From assembly GCA_010093515.1 (NCBI GenBank), contig MU001676.1:727686-791685 (forward strand): a stretch of 64,000 bases of DNA. The letters are read 5' to 3'. This DNA comes from Lineolata rhizophorae. Taxonomy: Eukaryota; Ascomycota; Dothideomycetes; Lineolatales; Lineolataceae. Positions 50,063 to 62,344 of the stretch are shown here, piece after piece. The notes below the pieces were generated by a model that saw only the letters and a list, made by a program, of their open reading frames with translations, searched no databases and was not told the origin of the DNA. Positions within the stretch are counted from its first letter, which is position 1. Each line of letters opens with the position of its first letter. A program made the translations under genes and the position numbers.

Positions 50063-50107
50063 AGCTAGCTGACCGGGTTCCGAGTCACCCGGGGTTCCAA
50101 CTCACTG
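50063..50107 (+). repeat. Left terminal inverted repeat
   Basis: Starts agctagctgaccgggttccg and matches the reverse complement of 51761-51805 at all 45 positions. A TA dinucleotide precedes it. Confidence 0.95.
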
Positions 50108-50164
50108 CCCAGAACTCAACACCCTCAACAAAACACGTGTTTTCTCACCACCCACACTGCCAAA

Positions 50165-51709
50165 ATGGACAACTGTGAAGAATCTATTCAAGCAGCTATC
50201 CGCGATCTTAATGCTGGTGTTTTTACTAGTCAAAGAGCTGCTGCAAAGGCGTACAACATCCCTCAAGCTACCTTCTCTGCCCGTGTACGAGGCACACAGA
50301 ACAGCCAAACCAGCCACGTATACCAACAACGATTGACACCAGAGCAAGAGGACTTCCTTGTACAATGGATACTTGAAGAGGACGCACGAGCTTTTCCTCC
50401 CTCCCACGCGCGCGCACGAGAAATGGCGAACCGAATACTGAGGATGAATGGAGACCACAGGCCCGTGGGCAAGCATTGGATGGCTGCCTTCCTGAAGCGC
50501 AACCCACGCGTCGCATCTGTTGTCGGACGAAAGATTGAGGCTGCCCGGGCTGANNNNNNNNNNNNNNNNNNNNNNNNNNNNNNNNNNNNNNNNNNNNNNN
50601 NNNNNNNNNNNNNNNNNNNNNNNNNNNNNNNNNNNNNNNNNNNNNNNNNNNNNNNNNNNNNNNNNNNNNNNNNNNNNNNNNNNNNNNNNNNNNNNNNNNN
50701 NNNNNNNNNNNNNNNNNNNNNNNNNNNNNNNNNNNNNNNNNNNNNNNNNNNNNNNNNNNNNNNNNNNNNNNNNNNNNNNNNNNNNNNNNNNNNNNNNNNN
50801 NNNNNNNNNNNNNNNNNNNNNNNNNNNNNNNNNNNNNNNNNNNNNNNNNNNNNNNNNNNNNNNNNNNNNNNNNNNNNNNNNNNNNNNNNNNNNNNNNNNN
50901 NNNNNNNNNNNNNNNNNNNNNNNNNNNNNNNNNNNNNNNNNNNNNNNNNNNNNNNNNNNNNNNNNNNNNNNNNNNNNNNNNNNNNNNNNNNNNNNNNNNN
51001 NNNNNNNNNNNNNNNNNNNNNNNNNNNNNNNNNNNNNNNNNNNNNNNNNNNNNNNNNNNNNNNNNNNNNNNNNNNNNNNNNNNNNNNNNNNNNNNNNNNN
51101 NNNNNNNNNNNNNNNNNNNNNNNNNNNNNNNNNNNNNNNNNNNNNNNNNNNNNNNNNNNNNNNNNNNNNNNNNNNNNNNNNNNNNNNNNNNNNNNNNNNN
51201 NNNNNNNNNNNNNNNNNNNNNNNNNNNNNNNNNNNNNNNNNNNNNNNNNNNNNNNNNNNNNNNNNNNNNNNNNNNNNNNNNNNNNNNNNNNNNNNNNNNN
51301 NNNNNNNNNNNNNNNNNNNNNNNNNNNNNNNNNNNNNNNNNNNNNNNNNNNNNNNNNNNNNNNNNNNNNNNNNNNNNNNNNNNNNNNNNNNNNNNNNNNN
51401 NNNNNNNNNNNNNNNNNNNNNNNNNNNNNNNNNNNNNNNNNNNNNNNNNNNNNNNNNNNNNNNNNNNNNNNNNATAAAAGATTAAATAGTCAACTTGAGG
51501 CTCTTAAGCCTCAACAGCCACGAAAGAAAGTTCGTGTTAATCCAAATCAACGATTTGCAGATATAGATACAATCATGGTTGCTGTACAGGCCTCACAACT
51601 TCTTGAGGCACAACGGGATGCCGACGCTGAGGAACGGGCAGCAGAAAGAGTAGCAGCTGAAACAGCAGCTCAAACACTTCAGTCTATGTGTACAGAGTGG
51701 CAATTGTAA
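50165..51709 (+). CDS. pogo-family transposase, centre lost in assembly gap
   Basis: The visible N-terminal 129 residues hold a psq-type helix-turn-helix (AAIRDLNAGVFTSQRAAAKAYN, IPQATFSARVRG) followed by a CENP-B/Tc5-type DNA-binding domain (LTPEQEDFLVQWILEEDARA, then GKHWMAAFLKRNP). The C-terminal ~78 residues after the gap are charged and helical (ADAEERAAERVAAETAAQT). The DDE catalytic domain must lie in the N run and cannot be checked. If the gap size is right the frame is continuous at 514 codons, a usual length for Fot/pogo transposases, but the gap length may be only an estimate. Confidence 0.85.
   Translation: MDNCEESIQAAIRDLNAGVFTSQRAAAKAYNIPQATFSARVRGTQNSQTSHVYQQRLTPEQEDFLVQWILEEDARAFPPSHARAREMANRILRMNGDHRPVGKHWMAAFLKRNPRVASVVGRKIEAARAXXXXXXXXXXXXXXXXXXXXXXXXXXXXXXXXXXXXXXXXXXXXXXXXXXXXXXXXXXXXXXXXXXXXXXXXXXXXXXXXXXXXXXXXXXXXXXXXXXXXXXXXXXXXXXXXXXXXXXXXXXXXXXXXXXXXXXXXXXXXXXXXXXXXXXXXXXXXXXXXXXXXXXXXXXXXXXXXXXXXXXXXXXXXXXXXXXXXXXXXXXXXXXXXXXXXXXXXXXXXXXXXXXXXXXXXXXXXXXXXXXXXXXXXXXXXXXXXXXXXXXXXXXXXXXXXXXXXXXXXXXXXXXXXXXXXXXXXXXXXXXXXXXXXKRLNSQLEALKPQQPRKKVRVNPNQRFADIDTIMVAVQASQLLEAQRDADAEERAAERVAAETAAQTLQSMCTEWQL
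50554..51473. other. Assembly gap (920 N)
   Basis: Unresolved bases inside the transposon. The sequence is unknown, so nothing is claimed about the catalytic part of the transposase. Confidence 1.
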
Positions 51710-51922: not shown

Positions 51923-52074
51923 TACATTAGGATCCGGCACGCCGGCCCACCTAAATTTGGCGTCCTTCGCCTTGTCCTTTTCTGGCAACCGCTTTCTAGA
52001 GCTTTTCTTATATCAGGAGTCTACACTTGAGTACGTATAGTCCATTTCTATAGTTATGCACGCGATACGGCTTT

Positions 52075-52959
52075 ATGCTAAAACATCTCGCAACCAGCGT
52101 CATGTTCGCGCGCGCCCTTGATAGAGTAGCATCCCTGACCCTACAAGTTCGGCTTCAAATCGGCAAGAAGCTTTTTGGCTCTCTAGGGCCGACCCTCGTC
52201 AAAATTAGTCGAAATCGAGTCATCAAAGGGCCTTGTCAATTGCCAGAGCTGGAAGCTCTCAACTACGTCGCCAAATACACGTCCGTACCTGTACCGAAGG
52301 TCTGCGCGACCCACGATCAGCCTGAGGGATTTTACATTGAAATGGAATACATCCAGGGGACAAATCTGGAAACCGCGTGGATTGGCGGCCTTTTATCGCC
52401 AGCTCAGAAAAAGGCTATTGTCCAAGAGCTTGCTGGCTTCGTTGAACAGCTTCGACGGCTCAAACCACCACATGAGGGGATAGTGGCTTCAGCAGGACTG
52501 AGAGGTGCTCTCGACTACCGGATAGGAACTAGTCTCTTCGGACCCTTTCACAACCATGAGGACTTCCATTCTTTTCTTCGTGGGCATATTCCCATGGAGA
52601 ATTGTTCGCAAGTTTATGGCGAACGAGTTTCACGTTGTCATTCTCGTCAATATCGGAGCTGTTTTCCCCATTCAGACCTCACGCTGCGAAATATCATTAT
52701 ACGCGACGGCAAGATCACTGCGATAGTTGACTGGGCATTCGCGGGTTGGTATCCAGAGTATTGGGAGTACACGAAAGCACATTATGGCCTCCTTGATATT
52801 CCTGATTGGTATGCGGAATTTGGACGCATTGTAGCAAGGTATGATGATGAACTGGCTGCTGAGCGTGCTTTATGGGCGCAGTTCGACGAACCCGGAATGG
52901 CACAGCAATGGATCAGCAGCTTTGCGAGCTCAAGGTGTGTAGAACGGACAGTTGTTTAG
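52075..52959 (+). CDS. Aminoglycoside phosphotransferase (APH)-fold protein
   Basis: A single frame of 294 residues with the APH/choline-kinase-like fold common in fungal secondary and accessory genomes. The catalytic loop HSDLTLRNIII (His199, Asp201, Asn206) is followed by the metal-binding IVDWAFAGWYPEYWEY (Asp near 218), and VPVPKVCATH and MEYIQGTNLETAW are typical N-lobe landmarks. The usual lysine-bearing strand is probably VIKGPCQLPELEAL. Members of the family in fungi phosphorylate small molecules or proteins, but substrates are mostly unknown and antibiotic resistance should not be assumed. There is no signal peptide. Length is close to the usual 280-320. It sits between the transposon and two gene relics. 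Confidence 0.8.
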   Translation: MLKHLATSVMFARALDRVASLTLQVRLQIGKKLFGSLGPTLVKISRNRVIKGPCQLPELEALNYVAKYTSVPVPKVCATHDQPEGFYIEMEYIQGTNLETAWIGGLLSPAQKKAIVQELAGFVEQLRRLKPPHEGIVASAGLRGALDYRIGTSLFGPFHNHEDFHSFLRGHIPMENCSQVYGERVSRCHSRQYRSCFPHSDLTLRNIIIRDGKITAIVDWAFAGWYPEYWEYTKAHYGLLDIPDWYAEFGRIVARYDDELAAERALWAQFDEPGMAQQWISSFASSRCVERTVV

Positions 52960-56339: not shown

Positions 56340-57048
56340 TCAATCATCATCATCCATAAGTTCGCTGTCATCTTCTTCCTCCCCATCGTCCTCCTCATTG
56401 CTCCCATCCACTATACTCTCTACTCTCGTCGGACCCTTGCCCTTCTCCCTGAACATTTCTAAAATCCCGCCACTCCCATCTCCTCCAGAGCCCTTGCCCT
56501 TTCCCTCCTCAGCCTCCCTCCTAGCTCTCAGCACCGCCGCTCGCGCCCGCCTAATCGCTTCTTCCTCGGCTTTCCGAATAGTGCCCGACACGCGAACGAC
56601 GCGGAGGACGCACGCCTCGGACACTGGGTAAGGCAGCGTAGTCATGAACGATAGCGATGCCCAAAGCAATCGGTAAGCGGCACGAGAGACACGGATGATT
56701 GCCGTTGATGTCGGCGCGGAGAGGTACATTACTGGGTTGTCGGGCTCACTAGTCAGAAGAACATGGCCCTTCCAGTCGACTGATGTGCGAATAAGAAGAC
56801 TCGGAGACAGCCTTACCGCGAAGACTTGCGCTCGTGATGCCGGCGCCGTAATCGCCGAAGTTTTCAACTATGGACTCGCGGATAGCGCGGAGGAGCAGCA
56901 GCGACGTCAGCGTGTCCGGGCTGGGCTGCAGGAAGCGCAGGACGTCTGGCTGCTGTTGGTGGGATTCGCCAGCAGCATTTTTCGATCTGGTGCTGCGTTT
57001 GGGGTAGAGGATGTTGACGAGAAGATAGCGGTGCTTCACGCGCACCAT
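56340..57048 (-). CDS. POP5: RNase P/MRP protein subunit POP5
   Basis: Two exons, complement(join(56340..56731, 56817..57048)), encode 207 residues; the 85-nt intron runs from GTAAGG to CAG. POP5 is a core protein of the RNase P and RNase MRP ribonucleoproteins, which mature tRNA 5' ends and cut pre-rRNA. The N-terminus MVRVKHRYLLVNILYP is diagnostic and fixes the start. Further family blocks are PSPDTLTSLLLLRAIRESI, ENFGDYGAG, and STAIIRVSRAAYRLLWASLSFM. The C-terminal ~60 residues are an extension over the core fold: basic, then Gly-rich, then strongly acidic (EEDDGEEEDDSELMDDDD), seen in several fungal members. Confidence 0.95.
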
Positions 57049-58120
57049 TAGTACACCGTGGACAGTCGCCGGTTTGGACGCACTGTGTCGTTGGTGCTTT
57101 TCCGGAACCCTCGAAATCTTTTTTGGCCAGGAGCGAAGCGACGCGACAGCACGTGATGGCGCTTTGGGATTAGCGTCGTACACGTTTGGTCAACCGGCCT
57201 TTGAACCATGATATCCCGCCGACTTTACGAGGAAGATATCACTAAACCATAAAATTCTGCGTCTCAGGTAAGTGTGCATTCGATTAATGATGTTTGCTAA
57301 GTTGATGAATCAAAAAAAAAAAGAAGAAACACAGTCTGGTGGCGCTAGAGACTCAAAACCGCTTGATTCTGACATTAGCGGATCTCTTGGAAACGTCCAA
57401 TGACGTGCTATAATTGGCACGCCCGAGTATCGGCGCCGAATAGGGCACAGGCCAAGAGATCACCATGACTCGTGCTCTAGTCGCAATGCTAAACTTTCTG
57501 CTGACCTCTATCGCGAGGAGGAAGACGGCATGTGACAGGTCATCAAATGTTGCTGCTCGATTGACCAAACGGTATTCTCCATCTCTACTTGTGGGCATTG
57601 CTTCCATCGTATTAAAATCATCAGATATCTCTCTGGTGCGGGCGATGACTGTATGGCCTGCATGTCTGCCTAGAGCGGTCTGTTTGTTCCAGCGAGACGG
57701 ACCGGACGCTGATTGAACAATCGCTCCCGGGCCTCGCAAACAGAATGCCCATTGCTACAAATCACTTCAGGTAGGAGATACTGGCCAGAGTACATGAGCC
57801 ACCTAACAAATCACAACTTCATATGATAGGGAGTTGCCTATCACCTGTTTCTGTTCGCTTGGTGCGTGCAATTCACTTTGTCACCTTGCCCCGTATCCGT
57901 GAACCCCTCGACCCCGTCGCTTCTCTCTTCACTTGTTCCCGCGTCGCACTTTTCGCCGGCTTTAACTTGTCCCTCAGCCTTATTCTGCCGCTCTTCACCT
58001 TCACCGCCCTTCCGGACCGGGGCGTGACGAGTTAGGCCGGCCACTTAAAGGTGTTTCTTCGCTTGACGCTGGTGGCTTCTTGTCTCATCGACTTCATCTT
58101 TCCTTCCGCTCAACGCTGCC
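57049..58120. promoter_or_regulatory. Divergent promoter region, POP5 and the La-Arb1 gene
   Basis: This 1.07-kb gap separates two divergent genes. An open frame at 57353-57739 on the minus strand (128 codons) shows no domain. A pyrimidine-rich stretch directly precedes the plus-strand ATG. Confidence 0.4.
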
Positions 58121-60589
58121 ATGGCTTCGCCCGAGGAGCCACTGGTCGCGCAAACCACCGGCGACGTTATCAACCAAGCACCCGAGACCTCCGTCGCAAC
58201 AGACAATGAAACACGCGACACGTCCACGACTAAGGACATGCCTGCAGCAGTTGGAAACGGGCCCAAGGTCGACAAAGCCATTAGCACCGAGCATGGTGGA
58301 AGCGGCGCCGCTGCGACCAACGGAAGTGGCCAGCCACCGAAAGATGATAACGTGGCGTATGTGGATCCACTATGCATGGACTACGAATGGAAACCTCCGC
58401 CTGTGAAGGAGCACCCAGAGGGTGATGCCATCCGCCGTCAGGTACGTACTCTCATCTCCGAAGACAAGAAGTAGCAAATTTCCTACGCTTTTCCATCCCC
58501 GTACCAGAGAAAAGTAAACTAGACGGTACCCTTCGGTCCTTTTCAGGTCGAGTACTACTTCTCAGACGAGAATCTCCCGTATGATGAACACTTGCTCGAG
58601 AAATGCGGTGGTGTCGAGAACAAACCTGTCCGCATCAAGCACATCTGTGGCTTCCCTCGTATGCGCAAGTTCAAGCCTTTCACACAGGTGGTCGAAGCCC
58701 TTCGCAGGAGTGCCTTTCTTGAGGTTTGCTCCGGCAACACCATTCGTCGCCGTGTGCCGCTGCTACCGGACATGTTGGTACATTCGGACGACAGCGAAGT
58801 GGAGGGTGGCGAGAAGGATGAGGACAAAGACAAGGACAACAGGAAAAAGGAGGAGAAGAGGGGCCTTGTACCGCCGCCGAAGCGGATGAATCAGAAGACG
58901 CAGAAGGACACGGGCATGCTCAAGGGGTCGACCGGCTTCGAGGAGTTCTTTGCAGAGGCACCATTGACCCCCGAGCAGGTCAAGGAAGAGAGCGGCCTCT
59001 ATGATGAGAAGAAACCCATCACTGAGTATGACCGTCCCTATATGGCTCCCACACTGTTTCTGTTGTTTCTTATTTACTCACTTGTTTATTGCAGACGCCT
59101 GGAAATCGCTATCCACCGCTACAAGCAGAAGCGCAAGTTTTGGACCTTTGCAGGCCAAGTTTTCAATCGTTTCCTCAAGTATGGCGGCGTAGAGGCGAAG
59201 GAGCGCCAGTTTACGGGACCGATGGACGAGGTCCTGACCCAGAACAAAGACAAGGGCGAGGTCGCGCAGCTACTTGCAACCCACCAGCTCGACCCCGAGC
59301 TTGATGAAGCGGACACATGGGTTGTCGACTTCGAAGGCGTGGCCAAGGGTTTCTTGTAAGTTCTGCCCGTGCGCCAGATTCCGGTAATGGTACAGCAAAT
59401 ATCGAGCAACCTTACTGACGACATACTCCGTAGCTCCTCCGTATACCCCGTATTTACCTCGTCTGTTACACCCCGCATGACCCGTGAAGCTACGGGAATT
59501 TTGCGCAACTTCTACAACTATCTCATGTACCACGACGTGTGTCCTGAGTACGCCGACTCGCTCGTGGCCGCTAGGCGTATCTGCGACCTAGCCGATCGGG
59601 AACTCCCTCGCGTGCGTCGCGCCGGTCTGCGCCTTCCCGGCGCCTTCAATGTCTCCTGTTCCGAGCTCCACAATGGCTATTGGTCTGGCATGTTCGTCGG
59701 CAAAGACAACTCTTTCATTCACGGCCGCTCTGACTGGGCCGAGGACGAAGCCGTGGCCGACCGCGAACTCGATGAAGAGGAAGGCCTCGAAGATGGCGAG
59801 GAGACGACCGGGGCACCCCGCGTCTGCCAAGCACTGGGCCCCATCCAGGCGCGCGTCGTCTTCTTCACAGCGCTAGCGTCACAGATGGACGAAGAGGAGC
59901 TGGACGCCTTGCAAAAAACGACGCGGAAGCTGGGGTTTGCGGGCAGCATGGCTCAGGAGCTCACACCCATGGGCCTCGAGGTCGCTCACGTCGAGATGCC
60001 GAACGAAAGGACCCTCCGCTTCTATGAGATGGCGCGGCTGAATCTACGCACCGACTTCAAAGTCGGCCGCGCCATGCAGCCCGTCGGCAAGCTGCATTGC
60101 CGGCCGTGGACGCCTCCCGCTTTCGTCAAATACGATCTGCCGGTCGAAGAGGCCGCGAAGCAAGACCTGAACTCCTCCGATGAGTTGCTTGTCTTCCTGG
60201 TCGAAACTGACGTCCTGAGGACCTGCTTCGTCGGCATGAAGCTCGACGCCGTCGTCGGCCGCATGGTCAACGGCATGCCGTTCCTTGACCAGATCAACAA
60301 CACTTACGCGTCATTCTACACTTACTTGCCCAACGAACTGCTTTCGACGCCTTGGAAGGCGCCCGAGATGACGGCACGTGCGCGTGAGCTCGAGATGACG
60401 GGCCCAGATGGTGAGATCGTCAAGCGGGACGAGGTTGCTGGCAAAAAAGGCGAGAATAGCGATCAGGAGGATCCGGCTAAAGTAGGCGGCGGATTAGACA
60501 CGATGGCGGCGGATGGACTACTAGATTTGACAGATCAGGACATCGGTGAGATGTATCGGATGCCGGGATGGGAGAGGGTCACCGAGTAG
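58121..60589 (+). CDS. La-motif / Arb1 fusion protein (Argonaute siRNA chaperone family)
   Basis: Four exons join(58121..58441, 58547..59025, 59095..59355, 59434..60589) encode 738 residues. About 100-180 is a La motif: RRQVEYYFSDENLPYDEHLL, GFPRMRKFKPF, VVEALRRSAFLEV, IRRRVPL, closely like yeast Lhp1; no RRM follows. A charged linker leads to an Arb1 domain from about 233: STGFEEFFAEAPLTPEQ, ERLEIAIHRYKQKRK, FNRFLKYGGVEAKERQFTG, then a long C-terminal half with SELHNGYWSGMFVGKDNSFI and FKVGRAMQPVG. In fission yeast Arb1 works with Arb2 and Ago1 in the ARC complex and is needed for siRNA-guided heterochromatin. La motifs bind RNA 3' ends rich in U. Both domains share exon 2 in one frame, so the join is not a gene-calling artefact. 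The third intron (59026-59094) is stop-free and in phase. Confidence 0.88.
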
Positions 60590-60866: not shown

Positions 60867-62344
60867 CTAGACTTTGAGAAGGAGCTTTCCTGTCGTCTTC
60901 CGGCCTCCCAGATCCTGCCGTATTCAGTGAGTCAGTCGATGTTTCCAAAACGCGTCTGACATGAAGAGGACTGAGACGTACGACTTGCGCCCTCGCCGCC
61001 TCAGCGAGCGGGTATATCTCGTGCATGTTCGTGTTGATTTTGTTCTTGAGCATCATGTCAAACAATTGGACAACGTAGCCCTCGAACTCGTCCTGGGTCG
61101 CAATGTACGGGTACAGTTGAGGTCGAACTAGCTTGAGGCACTTGGGCGAGAGGCGCCTAGAGCGATTTATATCAGCATATCAAATCGCCCAGAACAGTTC
61201 AAGGTAGAGTATCAATGCCACTCACGTAATCGTCAGGGGGGGCACCGCCCCGCTCGCGTTCCCAAAGCTGACCATAGTCCCCTTCCTCCTCAAGCACCCC
61301 AGGCTCAGATCGAACGTATCCTTGCCCACACCATCCAGCACGCAAATGACGCCCTCCCCGCCAGGCGTGTTCTCCTTGACCACCTTCTCCACCTCCGCAT
61401 ACCCGCCTTCCTTCTTATAATCCACCACGGCCACCAGGGCCTCACCCGCCGTCTCCCTCACGAGCCGGCACTTCGCCTCCCCGCCCGCCGTCGCGACGAT
61501 CCTGGCCCCCAGCGCCCGCAGCACGCGCAGCAGCCACAGCCCCACCCCGCCCGCCGCCGCGTGCACCAGCACGTAGTCGCCCTTCTCGACGCGGTGGCTC
61601 TCGCGCGTCATGGCGAGCGCCGTGAGGCCCTGGAGCAGGGCGGCGGCGGCGTTGTCGGTCGACAGGCCCGGCGGCACGGGCGCCGTGTTGCGCACGGGCG
61701 CGACGGCGTACTCGGCGTAGGCGCCGCCGCCGGTGAGGGCCGCGACGCGGTCGCCGACGCGGAGGGAGGTCGTGGTCGAGGTGGTGGGGCCGAGGGCGGC
61801 GATCGTGCCGGCGCATTCGCGGCCGAGGATCGAGGGGAAGGAGGGCGTCGGGTAGAGGCCGGTGCGGAAGTAGCTGTTGGTGGCGGGCGTTAGAACGTTT
61901 GGTGCGTGTAAGAGCAGGCAAGAGCAGGGGGGAGGGAGGGAAACAATACATGTCGATGAAGTTGACGCCAACGAACTCGTTCTTGATCAGCACCTCGCCT
62001 TCCTTGGGCGTCGGTACCGGCATCTCCTTGAGCTGCAGGACCTCGGGGCCGCCTGTCTGCTCGATGCAGACGCACTTCATGGTTTGGGGTACGTTGGCGG
62101 ACGCCATTGCGGTTGCGAAGGGCCGGGATCGGTTATTGCTGCTTGCTGGACTCAGGAGACGCGAGAAGATCGCAGAAGCTCTTTGAGTGGCGTGCTGAGA
62201 TTGGGCCAGGGTCAGAGTCGCGGACCAAGTGGAAGTTGCGCGTGCGGGCGATTCCGAGGTAGCGGTTGCCGCTGTGGCGAGAGGGTTGAAGCGCAGGCGC
62301 GAGATCAGACGGGATGGTGTGGCAAGGCGCAGGACGTGAGACAT
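60867..62344 (-). CDS. ZTA1: Quinone oxidoreductase, ZTA1/zeta-crystallin type
   Basis: Four exons, complement(join(60867..60914, 60982..61156, 61226..61873, 61950..62344)), encode 421 residues. It is a zinc-less medium-chain dehydrogenase that reduces quinones with NADPH. The core shows EQTGGPEVLQLKEMPVPTP, GVNFIDIYFRTGLYP, GRECAGTIAALG, the nucleotide site VLVHAAAGGVGLWLLRVLRALGA in two parts, and the C-terminal GRKTTGKLLLKV. The last, 48-nt exon is needed for this end; reading past its donor gives an unrelated tail. The first ~78 residues, before MASANVPQTMKC, are Arg/Ser/Ala-rich with a single Glu and look like a mitochondrial presequence; an internal start at that Met would give a cytosolic form of the usual ~340 residues. 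It converges with the La-Arb1 gene, 277 bp between stops. Confidence 0.93.

Follow-up and report, generated by a model that had tools for sequence, protein, structure and literature searches.

Organization of the La-Arb1 Locus

The window analyzed in this work is a stretch of 64,000 bp from contig MU001676.1 of Lineolata rhizophorae. At positions 58121-60589 (+ strand) it contains a gene of four exons, which are joined via GT-AG introns into an open frame of 738 residues and encode a La motif followed by an Arb1 domain. The gene, designated here La-Arb1, has the following structure (positions are those of the window):

58121-58441, + strand: exon 1, Met1 to Gln107; low-complexity N-terminus followed by La-profile residues 104-107; donor GTACGT
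58442-58546, + strand: intron 1, 105 nt, GTACGT..TTTCAG, phase 0, inside the La motif and immediately following the codon of Gln107
58547-59025, + strand: exon 2, residues 108-266 plus two bases from codon 267
58547-58705, + strand: exon 2 part of the La motif (PF05383), residues 108-160, 53 of the 57 La-profile residues
58922-60364, + strand: Arb1 domain (PF09692), residues 233-664, exons 2-4
59026-59094, + strand: intron 2, 69 nt, GTATGA..TTGCAG
59095-59355, + strand: exon 3, Arb1
59356-59433, + strand: intron 3, 78 nt, GTAAGT..CCGTAG, with CTGAC, a sequence resembling a branch site, 19 nt from its end
59434-60589, + strand: exon 4, remaining part of Arb1, C-terminal tail and stop codon

An earlier note on this DNA had proposed the same coordinates and a four-exon model, and the coordinates proved right. 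Exon 2 contains no stop codons in the coding frame and two and seven stops in the other two frames. The G+C content at the third codon position is 0.62-0.73 across the four exons, while the overall G+C content of the three introns is 0.41-0.50. Intron 1 contains a stop codon in the reading frame continued from exon 1. A YTRAY sequence resembling a branch site was revealed close to the 3' end of intron 3 and of no other intron; the matches in intron 2 fit the looser pattern YTNAY, and none was found close to the 3' end of intron 1, which is a mild weakness of the gene model at this intron. It should be mentioned that intron 2 is free of in-frame stops and has a length that is a multiple of three; if retained, it would insert 23 residues, most of them hydrophobic, within Arb1 and cause no frame shift.

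In-frame methionine codons are located between the La motif and Arb1 at residues 183, 221 and 231, and each of them could, judging by its position, start an Arb1-only product. Structure predictions made with AlphaFold were of low confidence (mean pLDDT of 55.7 for exon 2 aligned with the La protein of the same genome and 32.8 for exon 4 alone) and were judged too poor to use.

Several other loci were identified in the window. The divergently transcribed neighbour of La-Arb1 (56343-57189, - strand) matches, in two overlapping ORF pieces, the family Rpp14/Pop5, to which subunits of RNase P/MRP belong (PF01900). That an RNA-processing gene shares its upstream region with La-Arb1 is probably a coincidence. 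Downstream, a convergent ORF (61222-61986, - strand) matches the zinc-binding dehydrogenase domains ADH_N and ADH_zinc_N. Farther upstream, an ORF of 546 residues (50069-51706, + strand) contains the DNA-binding domains HTH_Tnp_Tc5 and HTH_psq, and at E <= 0.001 it matches no further family; as a guess, it encodes a CENP-B-like protein or is a remnant of a pogo-type transposon. It is followed by an ORF (52054-52956, + strand) that matches APH, a broad family of phosphotransferases (PF01636).

A La Motif and an Arb1 Domain in One Protein

The Pfam search with the whole protein revealed a La domain (PF05383) at residues 104-160 with a score of 69.2 bits (cut-off 37.1; E 2.8e-19) and an Arb1 domain (PF09692) with a score of 371.9 bits (cut-off 25; E 5.9e-111). 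The latter match covers profile positions 8-403 of 403 and thus represents the complete domain. Both matches are far beyond chance. When the La motif was scored exon by exon in the genome profile search, it received 69.5 bits. No third Pfam family was detected in the protein at E <= 1; in particular, no RRM match was obtained, and the HEAT/DM15 C-terminal region of LARP1 was not found by Pfam. The combination of a La motif with an Arb1 domain and no RRM, proposed in the earlier note, was therefore borne out by the profile search suggested there, and the four peptides quoted in it as La motif are present, at residues 110, 143, 158 and 174.

The search against PDB sequences gave 12 distinct sequences at E <= 1, all of them La, LARP1, LARP6 or LARP7 (the best was 2m5w, 3.6e-8); no Arb1 structure was among these matches. 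The PDB alignments of the La motif extend past the Pfam match to about residue 181 (position 58768).

The distribution of the domains over the exons is of importance here. Exon 1 contributes La-profile residues 104-107, up to Gln107, and all the others are encoded by exon 2, whose single open frame comprises most of the La motif, a charged linker and the start of Arb1. Since exon 2 alone carries 53 of 57 La-profile residues together with the beginning of Arb1 in one frame, the fusion does not depend on joining distant exons. It had been claimed previously that exon 2 spans the junction of the two domains in one frame, which is correct, and that it encodes the end of the La motif, which understates its share; the exon argument for the fusion is stronger than the earlier note put it. 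Thus, the La-Arb1 fusion is confirmed at the level of the gene model.

La-Family and RNAi Genes in the Lineolata Genome

We next give the distribution of related domains in the genome (30.97 Mb, 48 contigs, the window being part of contig C7); all counts of matches below are lower bounds. The La profile was found in at least three places: in La-Arb1 itself and on contigs C15 and C3. The C15 gene contains La and RRM_1 domains and a stretch, recognized by eye, that is rich in RGG; by its domains it is a genuine La gene, separate from La-Arb1. Beside the C3 La motif, the LARP1 HEAT region was detected in a further ORF, and this gene is a LARP1, likewise separate from La-Arb1. A search of the genome for a distinct gene of the Lhp1 type, recommended along with the initial description of the fusion, thus yielded such a gene on C15 and, in addition, LARP1.

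The Arb1 profile matched, genome-wide, the La-Arb1 gene only, as at least two pieces. Matches to Piwi were found on C6, C4 and C32 (four pieces), to RdRP on C5, C1 and C6 (four pieces) and to the Dicer dimerisation domain on C9 and C7 (two matches). The Arb2 domain was revealed on C4 as two pieces within one ORF, and no other ORF of at least 150 residues precedes it on the same strand in the fetched stretch. The histone-deacetylase domain was detected as four pieces on C21, C9 and C19 and none on C4, so that the C4 gene looks like Arb2 itself rather than like the Arb2-like tail of a histone deacetylase. With Piwi, RdRP, Dicer, Arb2 and Arb1 domains, the genome thus has the set of components of an ARC-type pathway.

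Relationship of the Fused La Motif to Genuine La

In pairwise local alignments, the fused La motif was identical to that of the genome's own La at 42 of 84 positions (50%), versus 36-37% for the comparison motifs (29/79 for Dictyostelium La, 32/90 for LARP6 and 28/77 for human La). Its alignment with the C3 LARP1 spans 15 residues, nine of them identical, and is too short for comparison. The stretches GG-x-ENKP and RMRxFxP are common to La-Arb1 and the genome's La. The stretch EWKPP is shared with LARP6, and we take this to be due to chance, since LARP6 scores 103 overall and the La of the same genome scores 194.

In a tree built from a small sample of 11 La motifs, the fused motif and that of the genome's La formed a pair (ultrafast bootstrap of 99 in IQ-TREE; FastTree support 0.993); the tree includes no other filamentous-fungal La, and most of its other branches are poorly supported. 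Judging by these sequences, the tree places the fused motif on the genuine-La branch and leaves the fusion undated. Given this placement, an origin of the motif from LARP1 or LARP6 was set aside. The branches of the fused motif and of the genome's La are both long, about 0.5 substitutions per site each, so the split between the La and La-Arb1 motifs is probably old, and many relatives would be expected to carry the fusion. We also looked for relatives of La-Arb1 in contig collections: 12 and 79 pattern-matched stretches from viral contigs and 75 and 34 from prokaryotic contigs gave no confirmed relative. As the collections are viral and prokaryotic, these misses say nothing about fungi.

Some of the aligned rows should be read with care. 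Three of the 11 have no letter at the position of Gln107 because the printed PDB alignments begin later, and by our reading the first letters of the genome's LARP1 row are intron read-through, the spliced codon at this position being CAA. For three structures the organisms are published: 2VOD (human), 1S29 (T. brucei) and 2M5W (D. discoideum) (PMC9705548). The PDB rows 2mtf and 1s7a are presumably human, and the organism labels of the remaining PDB rows are likewise presumed.

The genome's LARP1 gene has, again by our reading, an intron of 52 nt (L011 3309-3360) in the codon after the corresponding Gln. It lies 2 nt beyond the position of La-Arb1 intron 1, and the La gene on C15 is uninterrupted at this site. 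Nearly coincident introns in two of three La motifs may hint at an old shared intron that was slid or re-inserted; given the shift of 2 nt and a sample of three, this is only a hint.

Predicted Contacts With RNA 3' Ends

Classical La proteins use their La motif and RRM1 jointly to bind UUU-3'OH. The La motif of human LARP1 is reported to bind RNA 3' ends alone, with a preference for A; Gln333, Tyr336 and Phe348 are needed for the binding, and at the last ribose Asp346 forms bonds to O2' and O3', and Tyr337 to the phosphate (PMC9458460). According to the alignment, the counterparts of these residues in La-Arb1 are Gln107 (Gln333), Tyr110 (Tyr336), Tyr111 (Tyr337), Asp120 (Asp346) and His122 (Phe348). 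Asp is found at the Asp120 position in all 11 aligned rows. At the Gln107 position, Gln is present in seven of the eight rows with a letter, and the eighth, the genome's LARP1, reads Gln once spliced. The position of Phe348 is occupied by Phe in eight rows and by Tyr in two, and His is found in La-Arb1 only. Hence the predicted end-gripping core is kept, and the residue expected to stack on the last base is changed. Replacement of Phe/Tyr by His122 suggests an altered preference for the last base.

A second precedent is Mlp1 of Tetrahymena, which is of the genuine-La type and has no RRM. It is reported to bind UUU-3'OH, with poorer discrimination of uridylates than is shown by human La; for binding, a free 3' hydroxyl is required, as are the Gln and Tyr at the equivalent positions (PMC9705548). 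The Mlp1 La motif in isolation, according to the same source, does not bind uridylates, since a following non-RRM region is also required (PMC9705548). This counts against 3'-end binding by La-Arb1 unless its linker or Arb1 serves in the same way. With the contact residues other than the stacking one kept, binding of a 3'-OH by the fused La motif is plausible. The RRM-less precedents differ from each other (A in the case of LARP1; U, with a helper region, in the case of Mlp1), so binding of U-rich 3' ends, as put forward in the earlier note, is possible for La-Arb1, the base preference being a property that sequence cannot tell.

Comparison of La-Arb1 With Known Proteins

Like Arb1 of the S. 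pombe ARC complex, La-Arb1 has a full-length Arb1 domain, and Piwi, Dicer, RdRP and Arb2 domains accompany it in the Lineolata genome. The N-terminal La motif is an addition of the Lineolata protein; to our knowledge, S. pombe Arb1 has none.

Compared with genuine La (Lhp1, LARP3), whose representative in this genome is the closest to it in the La motif among the sequences compared, La-Arb1 has Arb1 in place of RRM1 and a His at the Phe/Tyr stacking site. For La motifs of the genuine-La type, the lack of RRM1 is a published exception, represented by Mlp1 (PMC9705548). Similarly to La-Arb1, Mlp1 joins such a motif to another domain, and its binding depends on the 3' OH and on the Gln/Tyr pair. 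However, its partner domain is DUF3223 and not Arb1, its role is in pre-tRNA processing, and no link to Argonaute appears in the available part of the source (PMC9705548). LARP1 resembles La-Arb1 in having a La motif without a neighbouring RRM, which in the human protein binds 3' ends by itself (PMC9458460), but La-Arb1 lacks HEAT/DM15, the genome's LARP1 is a separate gene, and LARP1 is located elsewhere in the La-motif tree.

Among fungal proteins, NCU06316 of N. crassa is Arb1-like by annotation, being 37% identical to Arb1 of Colletotrichum fioriniae across 76% of the query (PMC4203796). It has been paired with FGSG_04997 (pna-2) of F. graminearum (PMC5509106); we liken these proteins to La-Arb1 by the Arb1 annotation. 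Deletion of NCU06316 is reported to arrest perithecium development, with no beak formed (PMC4203796), and to give dark enlarged perithecia without asci or ascospores (PMC6904875). The F. graminearum "Arb1" of another study was set aside, as it is an ABC protein bearing the same name (PMC11237814).

No report joining Arb1 and a La motif was found in the open-access literature, to which our survey was mostly confined, and Arb1 was absent among the matches listed in a broader search of this literature (20 of 610). A search joining the La-motif family with fungal Argonaute gave no papers. In the accessible parts of three other papers, PF09692 is merely named among the search domains (PMC12210899), an expression value and a one-line role are given for Arb1 (PMC6933693), or the biology of S. 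pombe Arb1 is repeated (PMC13136243). Thus, the individual domains are known and their combination was not found in print; the mechanism considered below is a plausible hypothesis.

Possible Role of La-Arb1 in Argonaute Loading

We suggest that the only Arb1 detected in the genome, by means of an N-terminal La motif apparently derived from genuine La, may provide the Argonaute loader with a grip on RNA 3' ends; we estimate the probability of this reading at roughly 45%. The La motif would hold a free 3'-OH end of RNA while the Arb1 part would bind Argonaute, and the loading complex would thereby gain a direct hold on the end of its cargo, next to Argonaute, at the hand-over of the duplex. The 3' overhangs of siRNA duplexes would be the most obvious ligand; passenger strands, small-RNA precursors and RdRP products are alternatives. 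Such a grip would aid duplex loading, or it would retain the passenger strand until its release. A narrower form of the proposal, that La-Arb1 inspects or holds the 3' ends of siRNA duplexes or precursors during Argonaute loading with a base preference altered by His122, is tentative and must be considered rather doubtful.

In S. pombe, Arb1 and Arb2 are reported to be needed for loading duplex siRNA onto Ago1 and to restrain the passenger strand from being released (PMC5985592), and slicing by Ago1 is suppressed by Arb1 (PMC3380556). As for La, the Drosophila protein has been reported to aid RISC turnover (PMC7528652), and SSB/La to keep aberrant tRNA fragments from accumulating in RISC (PMC10191329). 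However, loss of the La orthologue in Naumovozyma castellii had little effect on silencing (PMC7528652).

The best surviving alternative, which we regard as unlikely, is that the La motif is a module for binding proteins or for tethering RNA in general, or an inherited leftover that binds RNA weakly, and that Arb1 functions in the S. pombe manner with no need of this motif. This would be consistent with His122, unique among the 11 aligned rows, and with the fact that the functions of S. pombe Arb1 have been described without a La motif (PMC5985592, PMC3380556). Against it, Gln107, Tyr110, Tyr111 and Asp120 are kept in a motif that is just 50% identical to the genome's La.

The second alternative, also unlikely and placed after the previous one, is that Arb1, through its La motif, binds Pol III trailers and other 3' ends and keeps them out of Argonaute, rather than aiding the loading of siRNA. 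The position of the motif on the genuine-La branch points in this direction, as do the reported prevention of aberrant tRNA fragments within RISC by SSB/La (PMC10191329) and the ability of the RRM-less Mlp1 to bind UUU-3'OH trailers (PMC9705548). But the genome retains a separate genuine La with an RRM, and La-Arb1 has none, while Mlp1, which also lacks it, shows weaker uridylate discrimination (PMC9705548).

It is improbable that La-Arb1 has an additional role beyond RNAi, as a LARP that binds mRNA, e.g., during sexual development. The disturbed perithecium development of the N. crassa NCU06316 deletion mutants (PMC4203796, PMC6904875) and the phenotypes listed as "Short beak" for NCU06316 and "Stage 5" for FGSG_04997 (PMC5509106) would fit such a role; however, RNAi itself is reported to act in ascospore discharge of F. 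graminearum (PMC11237814), so a sexual phenotype cannot separate a role in RNAi from one in mRNA binding. Finally, the joining of two neighbouring genes by mistake is very improbable: Met183, Met221 or Met231 could start a separate Arb1 product, but the end of La and the start of Arb1 lie in the same stop-free exon and the base composition by codon position looks coding in all four exons.

Returning to the preferred reading, a grip on RNA 3' ends by the Argonaute loader, it should be mentioned that domains found fused often work together, and for this reason the fusion would independently support the scattered reports connecting La with RISC in flies and human cells. How the ARC complex receives and retains duplex siRNA is only partly understood, and a fused 3'-end domain would be a concrete and testable handle on this question; point mutants of Gln107 and Tyr110 would separate the binding of RNA ends from the binding of Argonaute. 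If the narrower and more doubtful form of the proposal is true, La-Arb1 would, in this lineage, add to Argonaute loading an end-licensing step, of which the literature examined on the ARC complex of S. pombe gives no description.
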